37,814 bases of DNA from Clostridiales bacterium (lineage in GTDB: Bacteria > Bacillota > Clostridia > Peptostreptococcales > Anaerovoracaceae): assembly GCA_015058145.1 (NCBI GenBank), contig SVCX01000010.1, positions 1 to 37,814 on the forward strand, given 5' to 3'. The stretch's first letter is position 1; each line of letters starts with the position of its first letter. The notes under the pieces were generated by a model. It had not been told where the DNA came from. It ran no database searches and worked only from the letters and a program-made list of their open reading frames with translations. Shown here in pieces: positions 7,147 through 37,764 of the stretch. Made by a program: the position numbers and the translations under genes.

Positions 7147-7491
7147 ATGGAGATTCGGCTTTTGAGCAAGATAGATATCAGCAAGTACAAAGAAGAGGAC
7201 ATCACTAATATCTCAAAAGAAGAGACGCCGATAGTTAAGGCATTGGACAGACGACAGACAGCAGGCTTTATCAGCGGATTTGTACTGTTTGTGTTGTGTG
7301 GAGTGAATGCTTATTTCTATAATGAAATAGGGCGTGTTCCGGCAACAGTCATTGAGATATTGCTGGCTGCAGCATTGATTTTCTGCATGATACATAGCAT
7401 AAGGATAAGCATCCAGCTCAGCAAAATCAAGAGATGGCAAGTGAACGAATTGTATCGAAGGATACGTGAAAAGGGTGAACAAAACCATTAA
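7147..7491 (+). CDS. Small two-helix membrane protein of unknown function
   Basis: The 114-residue product has a charged N-terminal part (about 1-38), two hydrophobic segments (about 40-60 and 68-90) and a basic C-terminal tail. I recognise no family. The ATG at 7147 has no SD; an in-frame TTG at 7162 has GGAG nine bases upstream and may be the true start, giving 109 residues. The gene overlaps the phosphatase start by 26 bases, implying translational coupling and perhaps a physical partnership. Confidence 0.7.
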   Translation: MEIRLLSKIDISKYKEEDITNISKEETPIVKALDRRQTAGFISGFVLFVLCGVNAYFYNEIGRVPATVIEILLAAALIFCMIHSIRISIQLSKIKRWQVNELYRRIREKGEQNH

Positions 7492-9268
7492 CGACGCTAC
7501 AAATAAATATACTAACAACCTGAGGGCCCTTCGTGAAAATGGGTTTCGAATCAAGAAGTACAGGGCACTGGCGACAAGAACATTTATAATCATACTGATC
7601 ATGTCCTTACTGATAGGGTGTGTTGGCTTTTGGATCGGACATGAACTGTTCCGTACAATTTTCGCGTGGGTAACGAAGGACGATGTCCAAGCGATGACCA
7701 GAGCGGAGAGCAGGATTGTCAGCACGGAAGAAATGTATGATGTTACAGGTCAGATACTATCGATTTATGACAGCATACCTGACGAGGAGAAAGGCAACGG
7801 GAAGGGAGCAGACTATCAAGCTGCCTTTGAAGAGGTCTATGGGGATGACTATGATAATATCAAGTCGGTCATGTACCAGATCAGAAAAGATGACAGCATG
7901 AGGGGATGTTTTATCGCAGCCTTCAGCAAAGAAAAGGACGGCAGGATGATATATCTGATCGATGACGATCCAAACCCTGAGACGTTCTGTCCTCCTGGGA
8001 GCTGGGATACGTACGAACAGAGTCTTATAGACGGCCTTGTAGAAGGTACGCCGCCAAACAGATTGGAAAAAATTCTCGGTCTGACCAAGCCGATACATGC
8101 CGCCTGGAGCGTACGAAGGGGCAGTACGATATGTACAGGTGCGCAAGAACTGTATGAAACGGACAACTATCATGTGATGATCTGTATGGATCAGAATATC
8201 GACCGCATGATTGGCGCCAATTGGACGTTCACACGGTTATTCGCGCTGTTTATGACTGCTGCCGCTGTTGTCATCGCGCTCATAATGATGCATGTATTCA
8301 GGCGCAGGGTAGTCGAACCTATAAACCAGATGGCTGACGCCGCTGCTACGTATAGTGAGAACAAGGGCGAGGGAAGACTGACAGAAAGATACTTCAGCAA
8401 CCTTGATATACATACGGGCGATGAGATTGAAAATCTGTCTCTGACCATGAAGGAAATGGAAAGCGATATCGCCGATTATGTAAGCAATCTGACAGAGATG
8501 ACGGCGGAGAGAGAACGTATCGAAACAGAACTGGATCTGGCCAGACAGCTTCAGTTAGGTTCGCTGCCGGATGAGCTGCACGCTTTCCCTGACCGTACAG
8601 AGTTTTCTCTGTGTACGTCTATCGATGCTGCCAGGGGAATAGGCGGGGATTTTTATGATTACTACATGATTGATGATGATTATCTGGCGCTGACGATGGC
8701 GGATGTTTCTGGAAAAGGAATGCCTGCCGCACTGTTCATGATGAGTTCACAGATTATTCTCAGGGACTTTGTTTTGGCGTCTGATAACGTAAGTCCTGCG
8801 GAAACGCTTGCCGCGGCAAACAATCGCATCTGCGACCGCAACCAGATGGAAATGTTCGTAACAGTCTGGCTTGGGATCCTCGAACTGTCAACAGGACACC
8901 TGGTCGCTGCAAATGCCGGACACGAATATCCGGTAATCAGGCGGCATGACGGCGAGTTTGAATTGTATAAGGACAAGCACGGGTTTGTTCTAGGCGGTAT
9001 GCCAGGAATGACATATGAAGAATACGAAATCACATTGGAACCGGGTGACGTAATATTCCAGTACACCGACGGCGTAACGGAAGCGACGAATCCAGACAAT
9101 CAGCTGTTCGGGACGGATAGAATGCTTGACGCGCTGAATACTGATAAAGAGGCTGATCCTGCTCAGTTACTGAACAATGTTTCAAGCAGCATAGACAGCT
9201 TCGTGCGTGAAGCGGAACAATTCGATGATATAACCATGCTGTGCCTGAAGTATCACGGCAAGGCATAG
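7466..9268 (+). CDS. HAMP-SpoIIE (PP2C-type) serine phosphatase, membrane sensor
   Basis: The 600-residue product has membrane segments at about 39-60 and 257-278 with an extracellular sensor domain between them, a HAMP domain (about 278-335), a short coiled coil and a SpoIIE/PP2C phosphatase domain (about 370-598). Metal-binding motifs are IGGDF (Asp395), ADVSGKGMPAA, NAGHEYP, YTDGVTEA and EQFDDITM. Such enzymes usually dephosphorylate STAS anti-anti-sigma proteins in partner switches, but no STAS or RsbW-like gene is in this window. The start is GTG with GAAGGA upstream, inside the preceding gene. It is paralogous to the protein at 16496. Confidence 0.93.
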   Translation: MKRVNKTINDATNKYTNNLRALRENGFRIKKYRALATRTFIIILIMSLLIGCVGFWIGHELFRTIFAWVTKDDVQAMTRAESRIVSTEEMYDVTGQILSIYDSIPDEEKGNGKGADYQAAFEEVYGDDYDNIKSVMYQIRKDDSMRGCFIAAFSKEKDGRMIYLIDDDPNPETFCPPGSWDTYEQSLIDGLVEGTPPNRLEKILGLTKPIHAAWSVRRGSTICTGAQELYETDNYHVMICMDQNIDRMIGANWTFTRLFALFMTAAAVVIALIMMHVFRRRVVEPINQMADAAATYSENKGEGRLTERYFSNLDIHTGDEIENLSLTMKEMESDIADYVSNLTEMTAERERIETELDLARQLQLGSLPDELHAFPDRTEFSLCTSIDAARGIGGDFYDYYMIDDDYLALTMADVSGKGMPAALFMMSSQIILRDFVLASDNVSPAETLAAANNRICDRNQMEMFVTVWLGILELSTGHLVAANAGHEYPVIRRHDGEFELYKDKHGFVLGGMPGMTYEEYEITLEPGDVIFQYTDGVTEATNPDNQLFGTDRMLDALNTDKEADPAQLLNNVSSSIDSFVREAEQFDDITMLCLKYHGKA

Positions 9269-16495: not shown

Positions 16496-18259
16496 ATGAA
16501 ATCAAAGAAAAGAGGACTGATCCTTGAGGTCATTATCCTGTTCGCGTTTGGTACTCTGATGATCGGCATGTTCACCTACTTTACGCAGCAGGTGCTCACG
16601 GATTCCAGCATCAAGGGTCAGACCGAGAGAATGGCGTCCGATACGGCGGATATGACAATTGAGGCGATCAGAGAGTATCCTTCTTACAAGTGGCTCATTA
16701 CGTACTGGAGAGATCACGCGGAGGATATGAATGTTGAATATGACGTAGACTACAAAACCGGGGTGGGGACGAAAGCAAAAGCCGAAGCTCTCAGCAGGGC
16801 ACATCCGGATGTTGCCTTGAAGTATGCGACAACGGAGCAGATTGAATCCTGGTCGGCCGAGGATCAGAAACGATATGCCGAAGTAGCCTATACTTGGCTG
16901 ATCACGAGAATCGACCAGATTAAAAGTTCCAATGAAATCGCATTCCTGTTCTGCATTCTGACGGATTCAACATACAAGAACCAGTTTTTCCTGTTGAGCG
17001 GAGCCAGCCCGGGCGAGGAAAGAGGCACCAAGTTCGGAACAGTCTATACTCTGGGCGTTACGTCTGAAGTATCCGAGAGCCAGGAAAACGGCATGCGGGA
17101 TGCGCACAATCATGAGAGAAAACTTGTCGACGCCGGTAACTACGTTGACTACTACGTTGATGTCGAGCCCATCGGTGATGAAGAACTGATGATTGGCCTG
17201 ACCTATGATGTCACTGCACTCAACAAGGCCATCAGCAGAAGGACCTGGAACGGAACCATCATGGCTATGATTCTGGAACTTCTGCTGGCATGGGTCTGTC
17301 TGGCAATGATCTACCGTGTCGTGCTGCAGCCGCTTAAGACAGTTCAGGAGAACATACGCCTCTACATGAAAAATAAGGATAGCAAAAAAGTCTGCGAGAA
17401 TCTGGCGGAGATTACGTCCACCAACGAAATTGGTCAGCTGTCGAAAGATGTGGGCGATTTGACGATAGAAATAGACGAGCATCTGGAGCGTATTACGAAA
17501 ATCACGGGTGAGCAAGAAAGAATCAAGGCGGAACTGTCTCTTGCTACGAATATTCAGGCAGCGATGCTGCCGACCACTTTCCCGGCGTTTCCTGACCGTC
17601 TGGAATTTGATGTATATGCGACCATGGATCCGGCGAAAGATATCGGCGGTGACTTTTACAACTTTTTCCTGGTTGATGATGATCATCTTTGTTTGCTCAT
17701 TGCGGACGTTTCGGGCAAAGGCATCCCGGCGGCAATGTTCATGATGGCAGTCCAGATTATATTGAGAAACAATGGATCGTCAAGCAAATCTCCTGCGGAG
17801 ATCATGGAAGAAACCAACAACATGATTTGTTCGAACAACAAGGAAGATATGTTCGTAACGATATGGCTTGGCATTCTGGAGTTATCCACGGGCAAGCTTA
17901 CCGCATCGAACGCCGGTCATGAATATCCTGCAATCTGCAGGAAGGACGGGCAGTTTGAACTTCTCAAAGATGAGCACAGCATGATTGTTGGAGGCATTGA
18001 AGGACTGAAGTACAAAGAGTACGACCTGCAGATGGAACCAGGAGACAGGTTATTTGTCTACACGGACGGCGTACCGGAGGCAACAGATGCGGGCAATAAC
18101 ATGTTCGGTACAGACCGTATGATTACTGCATTGAACGAGGCGTCGGAAACGCCGATTGAGGTTCTGCAGAACGTCAGGAAAGCCGTTGATGATTTCACGT
18201 CCGGAGCAGAGCAGTTTGATGACCTGACGATGGTCTGCCTGCAGTATAAAGGAAACTAG
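16496..18259 (+). CDS. HAMP-SpoIIE (PP2C-type) serine phosphatase, membrane sensor (second copy)
   Basis: The 587-residue product has membrane segments at about 8-30 and 255-277 flanking an extracellular sensor, a HAMP domain (about 278-330), a short coiled coil and a SpoIIE phosphatase domain (about 360-585). Motifs are IGGDF (Asp386), ADVSGKGIPAA, NAGHEYP, YTDGVPEA and EQFDDLTM. The catalytic half is closely similar to the 7466 protein, but the sensor halves share little, so the two probably read different signals into related or shared targets. GGAGACAGT precedes the ATG. Confidence 0.93.
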   Translation: MKSKKRGLILEVIILFAFGTLMIGMFTYFTQQVLTDSSIKGQTERMASDTADMTIEAIREYPSYKWLITYWRDHAEDMNVEYDVDYKTGVGTKAKAEALSRAHPDVALKYATTEQIESWSAEDQKRYAEVAYTWLITRIDQIKSSNEIAFLFCILTDSTYKNQFFLLSGASPGEERGTKFGTVYTLGVTSEVSESQENGMRDAHNHERKLVDAGNYVDYYVDVEPIGDEELMIGLTYDVTALNKAISRRTWNGTIMAMILELLLAWVCLAMIYRVVLQPLKTVQENIRLYMKNKDSKKVCENLAEITSTNEIGQLSKDVGDLTIEIDEHLERITKITGEQERIKAELSLATNIQAAMLPTTFPAFPDRLEFDVYATMDPAKDIGGDFYNFFLVDDDHLCLLIADVSGKGIPAAMFMMAVQIILRNNGSSSKSPAEIMEETNNMICSNNKEDMFVTIWLGILELSTGKLTASNAGHEYPAICRKDGQFELLKDEHSMIVGGIEGLKYKEYDLQMEPGDRLFVYTDGVPEATDAGNNMFGTDRMITALNEASETPIEVLQNVRKAVDDFTSGAEQFDDLTMVCLQYKGN

Positions 18260-32229: not shown

Positions 32230-33279
32230 ATGGCAAAAGTGAAAGTTGACATTTTTTCGGGGTTTCTGGGAGCAGGCAAAACCACGCTCATCAGAAAACT
32301 AATCAAGGAAGCATACGACGAAAAACTGGTTCTGATTGAGAATGAATTCGGTGAAATCGGCATTGACGGAGGTTTTCTGAAGGACACAGGCGTTCAGATC
32401 AATGAGATGAATTCAGGATGCATCTGCTGCACATTGGTGGGGGATTTCAAAACCGCGCTCAGGCAGGTCATTGACCAGTATAAGCCGGAGAGAATCCTGA
32501 TCGAACCGTCCGGCGTCGGCAAACTCAGCGATGTCATCATCGCGGTGCAGGATGCCGGTATCGAGGAAATTGAACTCAACGGGTTCACAACTGTTGTTGA
32601 TGCTAAACTCTGTAAGATGTACATGGCAAACTTCGGCGAGTTCTATGAAAACCAGGTGGAACACGCAAGTTCTGTGATTCTCAGCCACACCAAAGGCCTC
32701 AGCGAAGAGAAAATCAAGGAATGTGTGGATATCATCCGTGAGCACAACGATCATGCTTCCATCGTGACCACAGACTGGGATGAACTGACCGGCAGACAGA
32801 TTCTCGATACCATGGAGCAGAAGAAGACTCTCTCCGCGGAACTCGATCGACTGAGAGAAGAGGCCTATGCGGAAGAAGAAGCACACCACCATGAGCATGA
32901 GCACCATCATCATGACCATGAACACGAGCACGAGCACGAGCACGACCATGACCATCATCACCATGAACATGAACATGAGCATGAGCATGGTCATCATCAT
33001 GCTGACGAAATCTTCAGCGACATCGGCGAAGAGACGGCCAACAAATACACGATGAAACAGATTGAGGAAGCCCTTGAAGCGTTGCAGAATGAAGAACAAT
33101 GCGGTCAGATTCTCAGAGCCAAGGGCATCGTAGAGGGCACAGACGGACAGTGGATCCACTTTGACTACGTTCCGGGAGAACCGGAAGTGAGAACCGGAGG
33201 AGCGGAGACGACCGGCATGATCTGCGTCATCGGGGTAGACATCAAAGAAGATACCGTCCGGGAGCTGTTTAACTTATAA
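32230..33279 (+). CDS. COG0523/CobW family GTPase with His-rich metal-binding stretch
   Basis: The 349-residue product has a G3E GTPase core: Walker A GFLGAGKTT (11-19), ENEFGEIGID, the metal-binding GCICC motif (Cys64, Cys66, Cys67) and the EPSG loop. A 39-residue tract of His with Glu/Asp (219-257; 25 His) precedes a CobW C-terminal domain. The family inserts metals, often zinc, into client proteins at the cost of GTP (ZNG1, ZigA, YeiR types). The start is ATG 32230, with GGAGGAG upstream; GTG 32221 overlaps the SD and is rejected. It lies 12 bases before a second, divergent COG0523 gene. Confidence 0.93.
   Translation: MAKVKVDIFSGFLGAGKTTLIRKLIKEAYDEKLVLIENEFGEIGIDGGFLKDTGVQINEMNSGCICCTLVGDFKTALRQVIDQYKPERILIEPSGVGKLSDVIIAVQDAGIEEIELNGFTTVVDAKLCKMYMANFGEFYENQVEHASSVILSHTKGLSEEKIKECVDIIREHNDHASIVTTDWDELTGRQILDTMEQKKTLSAELDRLREEAYAEEEAHHHEHEHHHHDHEHEHEHEHDHDHHHHEHEHEHEHGHHHADEIFSDIGEETANKYTMKQIEEALEALQNEEQCGQILRAKGIVEGTDGQWIHFDYVPGEPEVRTGGAETTGMICVIGVDIKEDTVRELFNL
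32884..33000 (+). repeat. His/Glu/Asp codon microsatellite inside the COG0523 gene
   Basis: Runs of CAT/CAC alternating with GAG, GAA and GAC encode the histidine-rich tract. The near-repetitive DNA is prone to slippage and produces an artefactual Met/Val-rich frame on the other strand. Confidence 0.9.
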
Positions 33280-33291
33280 GGAGTATGGAGC

Positions 33292-34239
33292 ATGATTAGC
33301 AACATCGAGATTCCGGTCTATTTGTTTACAGGTTTTCTGGGATCGGGAAAGACAACATTCATCCAGGATCTCCTGGAAGGTGACGACTTCAATGCAGGTG
33401 AACGGACGCTCCTGCTTTTGTGCGAGGAAGGGGAGGTCGAACTCAAGCCGGATGCTTTTGCAAGTCCAAACGTTTTTATTGAGCGAATCAAGCAGGAGGA
33501 TCTGGAGACGAAACATCTTGCCGGACTGGCTAATAAGCACAAAGCCGAGCGCGTCATCGTTGAGTACAACGGTATGTGGATGCTACAGGATCTCTTCTCT
33601 GCAGCACCGGAAAACTGGGTCGTCTATCAGGAGATGATGTTTGCTGACGCGAGTACATTCATGATGTACAACACCAACATGCGGCAGCTCACCTTCAACA
33701 AGATGCAGACGGCGGAGTTGGTGGTCTTCAACCGGTTCACCGAGGATTACGATCAGATGGAGTACCATAAGCTGGTCCGGGTGGCAAACCGGAGATCACA
33801 GATTTGCTATGAGTATGAGATTGACAACGTGGTCTTTGACGAAATCCCGGACCCGCTTCCATATGATATGGAGGCACCGATCATCACCATCAAGGACGAA
33901 TGGTTCGCTGAGTGGTATCGGGATCTGACTGAGAATCAGGACAATTATGAAGGCAAGAAGATCAAGGTCAAGGGCCTGGTTGCCAGAGACAAGACTCTGC
34001 CGGACGACTATCTCGTTTTCGGAAGACACGTGATGACATGCTGCGTCGAGGACATTCAGTTCGCAGGACTGGCATGTGTCTATTCGAAAGCGACAGATTT
34101 TAAGACAGGCGATTGGGTTGCGGTGGACGCAAAGATTATCAACAGAGAAGAAGAAATTTATGGTGAAGTAGGTCCGGTTCTGGTCTGCAGCAAGATCAGA
34201 AAGTGCGAACCCGCGGATCCGGAAGTTGCGACATTCTGA
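33292..34239 (+). CDS. Degenerate COG0523 GTPase fused to a TIGR03943/COG3689-like C-terminal domain
   Basis: The 315-residue product starts as a G3E GTPase, with Walker A GFLGSGKTT (14-22), but the switch/metal region reads LCEEGEVELK, the CxCC metal motif is absent and the NKxD guanine-specificity motif reads FNRF. The C-terminal part (about 215-315) has FGRHVMTCCVEDIQFAGL with Cys250-Cys251, the mark of the C-terminal domain of TIGR03943/COG3689 proteins that accompany metal-related permeases. It may be a non-canonical GTPase partner of the upstream metallochaperone. AAGGAGTATGG precedes the ATG. Confidence 0.82.
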   Translation: MISNIEIPVYLFTGFLGSGKTTFIQDLLEGDDFNAGERTLLLLCEEGEVELKPDAFASPNVFIERIKQEDLETKHLAGLANKHKAERVIVEYNGMWMLQDLFSAAPENWVVYQEMMFADASTFMMYNTNMRQLTFNKMQTAELVVFNRFTEDYDQMEYHKLVRVANRRSQICYEYEIDNVVFDEIPDPLPYDMEAPIITIKDEWFAEWYRDLTENQDNYEGKKIKVKGLVARDKTLPDDYLVFGRHVMTCCVEDIQFAGLACVYSKATDFKTGDWVAVDAKIINREEEIYGEVGPVLVCSKIRKCEPADPEVATF

Positions 34240-34839: not shown

Positions 34840-35370
34840 ATGAACGAAGCTCAATTTGAGGCAGGACAATACGTAGTATACGGTACCAATGGGATTTGTA
34901 TCGTGGACAGAATAGAGCGGATGAGTTTCACTGCAGGCGCGCCGGAAGAGACGTATTATGTACTTCGGCAGCACAAGCACAGCGAGACATGTTTTTTCGT
35001 TCCTTTGAAAAATGAGAGTCTTCTCTCCAAGATGAGAGAGCCGATGCGGAGGGAAGATATCGAAGATATACTGATGGGACTTTCTGACGACGATGTTCAG
35101 TGGGTGACCGACAGGCGCGCCAGAGGAGACTATTTCAAGAGCATCCTCAGCGAGGGTGTCAGCGGGCGTCTGCTGAATATGATTCGCTGTATCTATGAGA
35201 AGAAACGTCAGCTGGCAAGACAGGGCAAGAAATTATCCGTTACGGACACGACAACGCTTCGGTCGGCAGAAAAACTGGTCGAAGAGGAGTTCGCATGGGC
35301 CCTCGATATGACCCCGCAGGAAGTACCCGCATTCATCAGAAAGAGGCTTCATATACAGGAGGAAGAATAG
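34840..35370 (+). CDS. CarD family transcriptional regulator
   Basis: The 176-residue product has an N-terminal CarD/TRCF RNA-polymerase-interaction domain (about 1-65: FEAGQYVVYGTNGICIVDRIE, ETYYVLRQH, FFVPLKNE) and a helical C-terminal domain with RRARGDYFKSILSEG and a basic RLLNMIRCIYEKKRQLARQGKKL region. CarD/CdnL binds the polymerase beta subunit and stabilises open promoter complexes. AAGAAGGACGAC precedes the ATG. It is the first gene of an operon with a MurT-GatD pair nine bases downstream. Confidence 0.92.
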   Translation: MNEAQFEAGQYVVYGTNGICIVDRIERMSFTAGAPEETYYVLRQHKHSETCFFVPLKNESLLSKMREPMRREDIEDILMGLSDDDVQWVTDRRARGDYFKSILSEGVSGRLLNMIRCIYEKKRQLARQGKKLSVTDTTTLRSAEKLVEEEFAWALDMTPQEVPAFIRKRLHIQEEE

Positions 35371-35379
35371 ACAGAGCAA

Positions 35380-36729
35380 ATGAGATTCCAATTTGCACTG
35401 ATTGCCGCCAAGCTTGCGGCTTTTGCGATAAATATCGTAGCAAAGGGGAGGGGAACCAATCTTCCCGGCAGGATCGCCTTGAAATTTGATCCGGATTTTA
35501 TCAGTCACATCAAAGGGCTCGATCCGGCCAAGACCATTTTCGTCACAGGGACCAATGGCAAAAGCACCACGACCAATCTGATGGCCCACGTATTCAAGCG
35601 GGCTGGTCTTAAAGTCGCTGTTAATCTGGAAGGCGCCAACCTTATAGGGGGCGTCATCGTTTCGTTACTCAAAAACTGCAGCCTGTCGGGCAGACTCAAT
35701 GCTGACGTCGTGCTTATGGAGACCGACGAAAGATTTTTGCCGATCATCCATAAACAGCTTCCGGCGAAGAACCTGTGCGTGACGAATATTCAGAAGGACC
35801 AGGTTCAGAGAAACGGCGAGCCGGAGATCATCCGCCGCAAGATTCTGTCCGTCATAAATGATGATATGACAGTCTACGTAAACGGCGATGAGCCGAACGC
35901 ACTGAGTTTAGGAGAGAAGGCTGGAAGGTGCGTCACATACGGCGTCGACAGAAACGCCTCGTCATTTGACAAGCAGAAGGATTTCTTCTCGGTCACAGCG
36001 CCTTGTCCGATCTGCCATGAGGCCGTTGTCTACAACTACTACAACATCGACAACATAGGCAGTTTCTCATGCCCGTCCTGCGGGTTTGGAACTGCAGCTA
36101 ATCATTATCAGGCAGAGCAGATTGATTTTGAAGGAAAGACGTTCCGCTCGGGCGGCAAAGTCTATGATTTTAAGTACAGCACGCCTTACTTCCTGTACTG
36201 CTATATCGCGGCGCTGACGGTGGCTTCTGAATTCGGCGTGAAGGAAGAAGATATCAGCAGTGCGTTTGCTGATTTCGCGCTTCAGGGCGGAAGGATGGAG
36301 ACCATCACGATAGGAAGCAAAGAGATTAAGTATCTTCGCATGAAGCAGGAAAATCCGGAGACAGTCCAGTCAGCGCTCAATGTAATTGCTGACGATACGT
36401 CCAATAAGATCTTTCTGTTAGGTCTGGATGAACTGGTCGACTTCGATCCGCATTACACAAATACGTTCTACACGTTCGACTGCGACTTCCGCAGACTCAT
36501 AGAGTCGGGCATCGAACGCTGCATCTGCTTCTCAGGCACAGTGGCGTACGACGCGGGACTGCGGATGCTCTACGACGGGTTCCCGCAGGAGAAGCTGACG
36601 GTGCTGCCGACCAACGATGACAAGACTATCATCGAGGAACTTGAAAAATACGATTGCGATAACGTTTATCTGATCACATGGCTCCACAAATACGAAGCCC
36701 TGGCGGAGTACGTGAAAAGTTTGAAGTAA
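35380..36729 (+). CDS. murT: MurT-type Mur ligase (lipid II isoglutaminyl synthase subunit homologue)
   Basis: The 449-residue product has an N-terminal MurT stretch, P-loop GTNGKST (57-63), the EGANL segment and TNIQKDQVQRNGE, a Cys4 zinc ribbon (Cys209, Cys212, Cys231, Cys234) as in Staphylococcus aureus MurT, and the C-terminal DUF1727-type domain. With GatD, MurT amidates D-isoglutamate of lipid II using ATP. The C-terminal acidic loop (about 350-362, LDELVDFDPHYTN) differs from the DNxAD-type loop I recall in canonical MurT, where an Asp completes the GatD active site. ATP-binding parts look intact. A gatD homologue follows 28 bases on. Confidence 0.85.
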   Translation: MRFQFALIAAKLAAFAINIVAKGRGTNLPGRIALKFDPDFISHIKGLDPAKTIFVTGTNGKSTTTNLMAHVFKRAGLKVAVNLEGANLIGGVIVSLLKNCSLSGRLNADVVLMETDERFLPIIHKQLPAKNLCVTNIQKDQVQRNGEPEIIRRKILSVINDDMTVYVNGDEPNALSLGEKAGRCVTYGVDRNASSFDKQKDFFSVTAPCPICHEAVVYNYYNIDNIGSFSCPSCGFGTAANHYQAEQIDFEGKTFRSGGKVYDFKYSTPYFLYCYIAALTVASEFGVKEEDISSAFADFALQGGRMETITIGSKEIKYLRMKQENPETVQSALNVIADDTSNKIFLLGLDELVDFDPHYTNTFYTFDCDFRRLIESGIERCICFSGTVAYDAGLRMLYDGFPQEKLTVLPTNDDKTIIEELEKYDCDNVYLITWLHKYEALAEYVKSLK

Positions 36730-36757: not shown

Positions 36758-37609
36758 ATGGATAATTTCGATAAACTCAACAGAATAAGAAACAGATTCG
36801 ACCGGAAATCCGAGACGCTGACCAATGCGTCGGAGGTTACCGGGGAGAGCGGATTCAGATGTCTTCATATTCTCTGGCTCTATCCGGATGTGCTGAACAT
36901 CCACGGTGGCAGAGGAGATGTGATGGCACTTCTTCATATGTGCGATCTACTGAACATACCTGTTGAAATCAGACGAAGCGATAATCTCAAGGCGGATGAG
37001 GATTGGAACTGGCCGCACATCGTCTACATGACGGCAGGTGAACTGAAATGCGCAGACAAAGTTTCAGACGCGCTCATTCGCCAGAAAGAGGAAATCCGCA
37101 AATTCATCCGGCGAGGGGGTTTCCTGATCGCTAACGGAAGCAGCGGCGCGGTATTGGGCAAGCGCATCGAATATCTTGATGGCAGAGTCATTGAAGGCAC
37201 AGGATTTCTAGACATGACTTGGAAAGAGCGGGAGTCCGTCTGGGGCGATGACATCTGGGTCAGAACCGAAGATGGACTTGACGTGATCGGAAATCAGATT
37301 CAGGTCGCCGATGTGACGCTGGGAAAAGGACAAAAGCCGTTCGGAAGTGTCATATACGGAAGAGGAAATAACGGTACCGGTGATGAGGGCGCAGTAGATG
37401 GAAGCGTAATCTATACCGGCGTGTTGGGACCGCTTCTCACCAAGAATCCACGGCTCACTGCGGGCATTATTGAGAGCGCTGCAGTCCTCGCGCAAGTGGA
37501 ACTGGAGCATGATCTGAACCCGGCTGACATTGAAATTGAGGACAAGTCCGCCGAGTACATCAAGGCGTTTATGAAGGCAAAAATGGAATCTCAAAAGACG
37601 CCGGAATAA
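36758..37609 (+). CDS. gatD: GatD-like glutamine amidotransferase homologue, apparently lacking catalytic Cys and His
   Basis: The 283-residue product aligns by eye with GatD: HILWLYPDVLNIHGGRGDVMAL, the GRVIEGTGFLDM segment and KPFGSVIYGRGNNG near the C terminus. A 30-residue N-terminal extension is present. In S. aureus GatD the nucleophile Cys94 lies in a CGGYQ-type elbow; here it reads IANGSSGAVLG (Asn126-Gly130), with no Cys. The His189 position (YLHGP type) reads TGVLGPLL, Leu at 223. So the glutaminase dyad seems lost. It could be a structural subunit using free ammonia, or a new activity. GGAGA precedes the ATG. Confidence 0.8.
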   Translation: MDNFDKLNRIRNRFDRKSETLTNASEVTGESGFRCLHILWLYPDVLNIHGGRGDVMALLHMCDLLNIPVEIRRSDNLKADEDWNWPHIVYMTAGELKCADKVSDALIRQKEEIRKFIRRGGFLIANGSSGAVLGKRIEYLDGRVIEGTGFLDMTWKERESVWGDDIWVRTEDGLDVIGNQIQVADVTLGKGQKPFGSVIYGRGNNGTGDEGAVDGSVIYTGVLGPLLTKNPRLTAGIIESAAVLAQVELEHDLNPADIEIEDKSAEYIKAFMKAKMESQKTPE

Positions 37610-37687: not shown

Positions 37688-37764
37688 GGCGGTGTAGCTT
37701 AGTTGGCTAGAGCGTCCGGTTCATACCCGGAAGGTCGGTGGTTCGACTCCACTCGCCGCTACCA
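37688..37764 (+). tRNA. tRNA-Met (CAT)
   Basis: A cloverleaf is readable: acceptor GGCGGTG/CGCCGCT, D arm, anticodon stem TCCGG/CCGGA with loop TTCATAC (anticodon CAT), variable loop AGGTC, T arm GGTGG-TTCGACT-CCACT, and encoded CCA. It lacks the G-C triplet typical of initiator anticodon stems, so it is read as elongator Met; tRNA-Ile2 with lysidine cannot be excluded by sequence alone. The first acceptor pair is G-U. Confidence 0.93.

Follow-up and report, generated by a model that had tools for sequence, protein, structure and literature searches.

The MurT–GatD pair is assumed to make D-isoglutamine wherever it is annotated, and the locus described here raises the question of what such a pair does when its GatD has no residues with which to hydrolyse glutamine. 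The locus belongs to a stretch of 37,814 nucleotides from a Clostridiales bacterium (contig SVCX01000010.1), which is referred to below, in its entirety, as the window.

A MurT–GatD pair with an altered active site

The last two protein genes of the window are located on the plus strand in the order murT–gatD. The murT-like gene (35380..36729), recognised from its open reading frame, profiles and alignments, encodes 449 amino acids comprising a Mur ligase middle domain, four zinc ribbon cysteines and MurT_C, and it retains GTNGKS, ETDE and the Lys-Asn-Pro residues (as KQENPET). The gatD-like gene (36758..37609), recognised from its open reading frame, profile and structure matches, and alignments, encodes 283 amino acids. 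Its product scores 63.6 bits against NCBIfam NF045636 (equivalog cut-off 400), 44.7 bits against NF052463 and 28.4 bits against Pfam GATase_3 (cut-off 27), and the MurT homologue scores 157.3 bits against NF045635 (equivalog cut-off 800). Both proteins belong to the lipid II isoglutaminyl synthase families, far under the equivalog cut-offs. Solved GatDs matched by the window GatD are 6fqb_E (E = 1.9e-14), 9sq9_C and 6gs2_A, and solved relatives of the pair include 6fqb, 9sq9, 6gs2 and 7q8e.

In the genome of the window, an 80% complete bin, there is one match to MurT_C and one to the window's GatD. The comparison with other gatD copies of this genome, which the original prediction had proposed, came down to this true match and a weak NF045636 match (9.1e-7) in a frame of 529 residues, CobB/CobQ-like judging by its length. 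A second, canonical MurT–GatD pair was also considered, and none was found in the 80% complete bin.

The original prediction held that this GatD seems to have lost its catalytic Cys and His, and alignment with characterised GatD bears this out, with no Cys–His pair at the active-site positions. Cys94 of S. aureus GatD (in ICGGYQ) aligns with Gly127 of the window protein (in IANGSSGAVLG; codon 37136..37138, plus strand), and His189 (in YLHGP) aligns with Leu223 (in GVLGPLL; codon 37424..37426, plus strand), which is also how the elbow stretch and Leu223 had been numbered beforehand. In other words, the G-X-C-X-G nucleophile elbow and the catalytic His of class I glutamine amidotransferases are both missing, and so are the glutamine-capturing Arg128 and the oxyanion Gly60. 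The partner MurT had been described as changed in the same active-site region, a statement that can now be made precise: Asp349 of S. aureus MurT (in GRDTSW), the third residue of the proposed glutaminase triad, aligns with Asn361 (in YTNTFY; codon 36460..36462, plus strand). Chance or a frameshift artefact is ruled out by the open frames and by replacements common to many genomes. As for a relocated nucleophile, an alignment of 14 GatD homologues of the window type contains no invariant or nearly invariant Cys.

The weight of these losses can be estimated from mutants of the characterised enzymes. Passages of PMC5871853 describe the roles of Arg128, Gly60 and the G-X-C-X-G motif, and report that glutamine deamidation is lost in S. 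aureus GatD C94A, H189A and R128A. Amidation of lipid II from glutamine is lost in GatD C94G and C94S. According to passages of PMC3266927, MurT paired with GatD C94G can still carry out this amidation when free ammonia is supplied at pH 8.5. Regarding MurT, S. aureus D349N is inactive or severely reduced (passages of PMC6113224), and the pneumococcal equivalent, D355A, retains reduced activity (passages of PMC6085368). Because the pneumococcal mutant is still partly active, the loss of Asp349 alone would not settle the loss of glutaminase function.

Type B as a conserved form of the pair

The form of the MurT–GatD pair found in the window and its like is referred to as type B. Residues were counted in 119 distinct aligned pairs, which represent top-scoring or chosen loci together with S. 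aureus and not a random sample; identical MurT rows were counted once, and eight MurT-like rows without a paired GatD were dropped, two of them (L014 and L086:3679) apparently genuine MurTs. Cys94, His189, Arg128, Gly60 and MurT Asp349 are each present in 37 of 37 canonical pairs, whereas each is found in 0 of 41 type-B pairs. The position of Cys94 is occupied in type B by Gly (40) or Ser (1), that of His189 by Leu (39), Thr (1) or Val (1), and that of MurT Asp349 by Asn (38) or Val (3). At the same time, GTNGK, E108, D110, E111, K315 and N316 of MurT are each retained in 41 of 41. The recurrence of the same losses in all 41 pairs indicates that the apparent glutaminase loss is a conserved trait of the clade, not a peculiarity of the window's genome.

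The changes in MurT are not restricted to Asp349. The DGxDxSW stretch is complete in 37/37 canonical pairs, whereas in type B D346 is kept in 1/41 and G347, S351 and W352 in 0/41; D342, the opening Asp of this loop, is retained as D (39) or E (2). New features of the type-B MurT are KQEN[PA][ED]T (39/41) and Yx[NV]xFY (38/41), and the former elbow of GatD reads G[TS][ST] in 36 of the 41. The DNAAD motif, located next to the DGxDxSW stretch, is suggested as a muropeptide contact in passages of PMC6113224. With DGxDxSW replaced and a putative muropeptide-contact motif adjoining it, the change exceeds what the loss of glutaminase activity alone needs.

Compared with the canonical pairs of S. aureus and S. 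pneumoniae, type B has the same murT–gatD order, the same MurT domains with four ribbon cysteines, a GATase_3-type GatD and the ATP-site residues, as well as GatD G190–P191 (41/41) and N196 (40/41). It differs in lacking the four GatD residues and MurT Asp349, G347, S351 and W352, and in having two residues inserted after Lys315 of MurT (KQENPET). The window pair naturally carries both of the substitutions known from the laboratory mutants GatD C94G and MurT D349N. However, each of those mutants differs at one position and no longer has glutamine-dependent activity, whereas type B is also changed at His189, Arg128, Gly60 and the MurT stretch, throughout the clade.

Forms without Cys and His other than type B were found as well, namely C1 (14 pairs), C2 (7), D (14) and two singletons. 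In all 78 pairs without Cys and His, the Cys position holds Gly (76) or Ser (2), Asp349 is retained in 6, and MurT E108 and K315 are present in 78/78. Judged by the aligned residues, the whole set of three (Cys, His and Asp349) is lost only in type B, C1 and C2. In a MurT tree built by a quick method and drawn with its root at the midpoint, the 78 pairs are separated from the canonical pairs and four Cys-only losses by one branch (SH-aLRT 98). A more careful tree of 59 rows places the 13 canonical pairs together (98/96) and type B in one group (100/100). Going by these trees, the set without Cys and His may share one origin.

The MurT–GatD pair of type B is under strong purifying selection, not in decay. 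Among the window and four close relatives, dS was finite in 13 of 20 comparisons (10/10 for MurT and 3/10 for GatD), and dN/dS is 0.024–0.061 in these; in the other seven, all of GatD, synonymous sites are saturated and pN is 0.11–0.17.

Form D (rows L108–L117, L120–L122, L127 and L128, without L116 and L119) occurs in several clostridial families and has a [HN]ENS motif in MurT, Gly in place of Cys, mostly Ile or Ser in place of His, and Glu or Asp at Asp349. Fifteen rows, counting L118, carry the label D, and 14 of these retain Arg128. The row L118 was labelled D by the script, but it reads Gly-His-Asp and groups with the canonical pairs, where it was counted. Together with L124–L126 it is otherwise canonical, with Cys94 alone changed to Gly and with His189 and Asp349 kept, Arg128 being kept in L124–L126. 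These four pairs are natural candidates for free-ammonia amidases.

Distribution, cell walls and neighbouring genes

The GatD model was run on the window's family (148 genomes), and a window-like MurT profile on samples of the family, order, class and phylum (148, 393, 391 and 346 genomes), which overlap. In the order and class surveys at most four candidates were scored per genome, and in the family survey all candidates in its 15 type-B genomes. Type B was found in 15/148 genomes of the family sample, in at least 47/393 of the order sample, all in the window's family, and in at least 15/391 of the class sample, of which 13 lie outside the window's family, in families f64, f85, f81 and f29. 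The phylum sample gave 2/346 at 1e-100, the window's own genome included. Among the matches listed, type B is set apart by a gap in score, at least 447 against at most 267 bits in the order sample (disregarding the second pieces of hits that are split in G322 and G415) and at least 525 against at most 280 bits in the class sample. A weak match in the order sample (G351, 1.3e-30) was left unclassified. The identification of G937, a type-B genome outside the class, as Erysipelothrix was rejected, since its G+C content of 52% in 19 kb speaks against a genus with about 36%.

Type B replaces canonical pairs rather than adding to them. With all candidates scored in the type-B genomes of the family sample and at most the best four per genome in the other two samples, both were found in 0/15 type-B genomes of the family sample, 0/47 of the order sample and 1/15 of the class sample, which is as expected if both act on the same carboxyl. 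Strict mutual exclusion is ruled out by the one exception, G745, which has both. Two genomes of family f85 (G696 and G779) combine a divergent type B with another pair without Cys and His. Among the 25 sampled genomes of the window's genus, type B is present in 13, another MurT in five, and none at 1e-15 in seven, among the matches listed, and this mixture suggests that the trait turns over quickly. Two type-B copies per genome were seen in four genomes of the order sample, among the matches listed. Two type-B MurT genes lie near each other in one genome at L073 (G399), and also in G314, G380 and G413; the second GatD of L073 has Ser at the Cys position and Val at the His position.

The occurrence of type B in acetogens makes it possible to relate the pair to cell-wall structure. 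No MurT other than type B matched at 1e-40 in Acetobacterium woodii (G515), where the best 4 of 12 candidates were scored, and the same applies to Eubacterium limosum ATCC 8486 (G795), with the best 4 of 13; a second pair in either organism is unlikely. A. woodii and E. limosum probably have walls of the B type, bridged by D-Orn or D-Lys. The bridge of a group-B wall is attached at the alpha-carboxyl of D-Glu-2, which is also the one activated by canonical MurT. Forming this bond requires that the stem carboxylate be activated, a step that Fem-type transferases are not known to perform. Eubacterium (Eubacteriaceae) is listed with group B2alpha peptidoglycan in a genus-level entry of a review table (PMC11382707). 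The assignment of G515 is supported by its RnfC, identical over 443 residues to PDB 9eri_C, which comes from the A. woodii Rnf complex (passages of PMC11889175). Among the matches listed from open-licence papers, the available passages describe no natural MurT–GatD pairs without the glutaminase site and name no ligase for group-B bridges.

The stem peptide does not follow the same line. In 30 genomes aligned of 36 searched, the MurE motif of type-B carriers is mixed. A. woodii and E. limosum have DNPA, two genomes belonging to the genus of the window have DNPR, and EDPR and further motifs occur elsewhere, so that the motif is ruled out as a marker of one wall type and type B appears not to be tied to one stem peptide. 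The search for murE in the window's own genome (the 80% complete bin) gave no match. DNPR is presumably the DAP-type motif, and the window's organism may contain diaminopimelate. The presence of DNPR in two genomes of its genus suggests that the product of the window pair may be another substitution of D-Glu.

Gene order hints at a further connection. Of 60 type-B genomes, five, which represent three genera (G479, G014, G419, G078 and G133), have an Orr-family ornithine-racemase-like gene directly 3' of the type-B gatD, as against 0 of 43 non-type-B genomes with a MurT match, where coordinates were compared by eye. Against NF040742, these genes score 411.5 bits in G479, 338.7 in G014 and 287.5 in G078, all below the cut-off of 480. 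In G014, murE (287.8 bits, cut-off 257.3), murT, gatD and the racemase gene are contiguous without gaps on one strand. The canonical genome G132 has a racemase gene some 3 kb away on the opposite strand, and at L077 (C1) the distance is about 7 kb. Orr-like racemase genes anywhere in the genome are equally common with type B (58/60) and without it (58/62), which rules out their presence as a marker, so that adjacency alone counts as evidence. In Eubacteriaceae, murT–gatD is followed by mnmA (L199, L200 and L205), and glmM lies downstream in L199 and L200 and directly downstream in L204. Most fetched type-B loci, the window's included, sit among housekeeping genes, the neighbours being named by eye.

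A possible amino-acid ligase and its alternatives

The alignments confirm, as far as residues can predict activity, that glutaminase function has been lost and ATP-driven ligase motifs have been kept in a branch of the family from gut and acetogenic bacteria. The preferred reading is that the type-B pair would have arisen from lipid II isoglutaminyl synthase and would act as an ATP-dependent ligase. MurT would activate a carboxylate to the acyl phosphate, most likely the alpha-carboxyl of D-Glu-2 of a peptidoglycan precursor, and the attacking amine would be a whole amino acid instead of ammonia from glutamine. Within the type-B clade, this amine may most often be a D-diamino acid, for instance D-ornithine or D-lysine, as in group-B2 cross-bridges. 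GatD, having no glutaminase site, would have been retained as the partner of MurT in order to complete the active site and, probably, to bind the amine that comes in. The substrate, the amine, the product and the role of GatD are in this way what we infer for type B. The proposal that an amino acid, instead of ammonia derived from glutamine, is joined to the D-Glu alpha-carboxyl and that GatD serves as the binding subunit is the most likely of the readings considered, at even odds. The 55 of 60 type-B genomes without racemase adjacency speak against it, as do the mixed MurE motifs, the housekeeping surroundings of most fetched loci and the in vitro activity of S. aureus GatD C94G with free ammonia. 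A narrower version is offered tentatively and may well fail: type-B MurT with its pseudo-GatD could be the missing group-B ligase, coupling D-Orn or D-Lys to the D-Glu-2 alpha-carboxyl with GatD binding the amino acid, and C1, C2 and D could attach other residues there.

The original prediction had left two readings side by side, use of free ammonia or reuse for another ligation. The glutaminase loss on which both were built is strongly supported, and the ligation reading is favoured because of the changed acceptor-side stretch of MurT, the two acetogens in which type B is the only MurT match among the candidates scored and whose family is reported to cross-link its wall via the same carboxyl, and the operon linkage with murE and racemase genes in some members. 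The free-ammonia reading is still live, although we hold it to be unlikely. According to it, the pair would still make D-isoglutamine, drawing on a habitat rich in ammonia, with GatD only holding MurT active; the intact ATP-site motifs fit this, and the exact Cys-to-Gly change in the window GatD is the one with which the S. aureus enzyme amidated lipid II from ammonia. Replacement of DGxDxSW, with G347, S351 and W352 kept in none of the 41 pairs, would nevertheless be unexpected for an unchanged acceptor and product, and the Cys-only losers L124–L126, in which His, Arg128, Asp349 and DGxDxSW are kept, fit such an amidase better. Moreover, should A. woodii and E. limosum have group-B walls, their D-Glu carboxyl is already taken, and still no MurT other than type B was found in them, with four candidates scored in each.

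An acceptor outside peptidoglycan appears rather improbable. The pair would then ligate onto another metabolite or polymer containing glutamate or aspartate, as might be read from the changed acceptor-side stretch of MurT and from the lack of cell-wall neighbours at most fetched type-B loci; murE directly upstream in G014, glmM downstream in three scanned Eubacteriaceae loci (L199, L200 and L204), and the fact that type B replaces canonical pairs instead of joining them all point back to the wall. It is very improbable that the pair is non-catalytic or decaying, with GatD a pseudoenzyme kept for regulation or by inertia. The lost glutaminase residues and the 7 of 25 same-genus genomes without a MurT match at 1e-15, among the matches listed, would agree with decay, but dN/dS of 0.02–0.06 where computable, ATP-site motifs in 41/41 and replacements that are common to the clade and not random all argue against it.

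The amino-acid ligation proposed here has parallels in known systems. MurE and MurF combine ATP-dependent activation of a stem carboxylate with an attacking amino acid, which is the chemistry suggested for type B; they differ in that type-B MurT has a GatD partner and that an amino acid as its amine is only proposed. The MurT family also has no N-terminal UDP-MurNAc-binding domain, unlike MurE and MurF. The group-B cross-bridge (Schleifer–Kandler B1/B2) makes use of the same alpha-carboxyl of D-Glu-2, but it is a wall type and not an enzyme. Carbamoyl phosphate synthetase I, which uses free ammonia, has kept its GATase domain after losing the Cys nucleophile, just as type-B GatD is a GATase domain kept without one.

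Since a large conserved part of the family is without every residue known to be needed for glutamine use, wall chemistry deduced from murT–gatD could be mistaken in many gut Clostridia, and likewise in acetogens such as A. woodii. Should the proposal be true, group-B cross-links would gain a named candidate enzyme, and type-B GatD would exemplify the conversion of a glutaminase into an amino-acid-binding subunit. Passages in the literature also connect D-Glu amidation with host sensing of peptidoglycan.

Surroundings of the pair and related gene clusters

Among the neighbours of the pair in the window, none was recognised as functionally connected to it. Upstream of murT, an open reading frame of 176 amino acids (34840..35370, plus strand), which we take to be CarD-like, had no NCBIfam match at 1e-5; a homologue (cluster c17) sits 5' of murT in four fetched loci of close relatives, and it is described here as a neighbour, with no functional link claimed. 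Behind gatD lies a tRNA-Met gene (37688–37764), followed by the start of another tRNA, as seen by eye. Farther upstream, two CobW-like GTPase genes stand in tandem (32230–33276 and 33292–34236), the former with a very His-rich stretch and the latter with a TIGR03943-like C-terminus that scores just below the cut-off. Two sensor-like proteins (7466–9268 and 16496–18259) have weak SiaA/SpoIIE-type phosphatase matches.

In some other genomes, the housekeeping slot of the type-B pair holds C1 or C2 pairs. These are often arranged in tandem, with an ATP-grasp-like gene (cluster c9) between or beside them, for instance in L083, L093, L094 and L086. Cluster c9, which has a weak TIGR02291 match, is present in 10 of 17 fetched non-canonical loci among L075–L094, and the tandem together with c9 looks like a multi-step peptide-ligation cassette.
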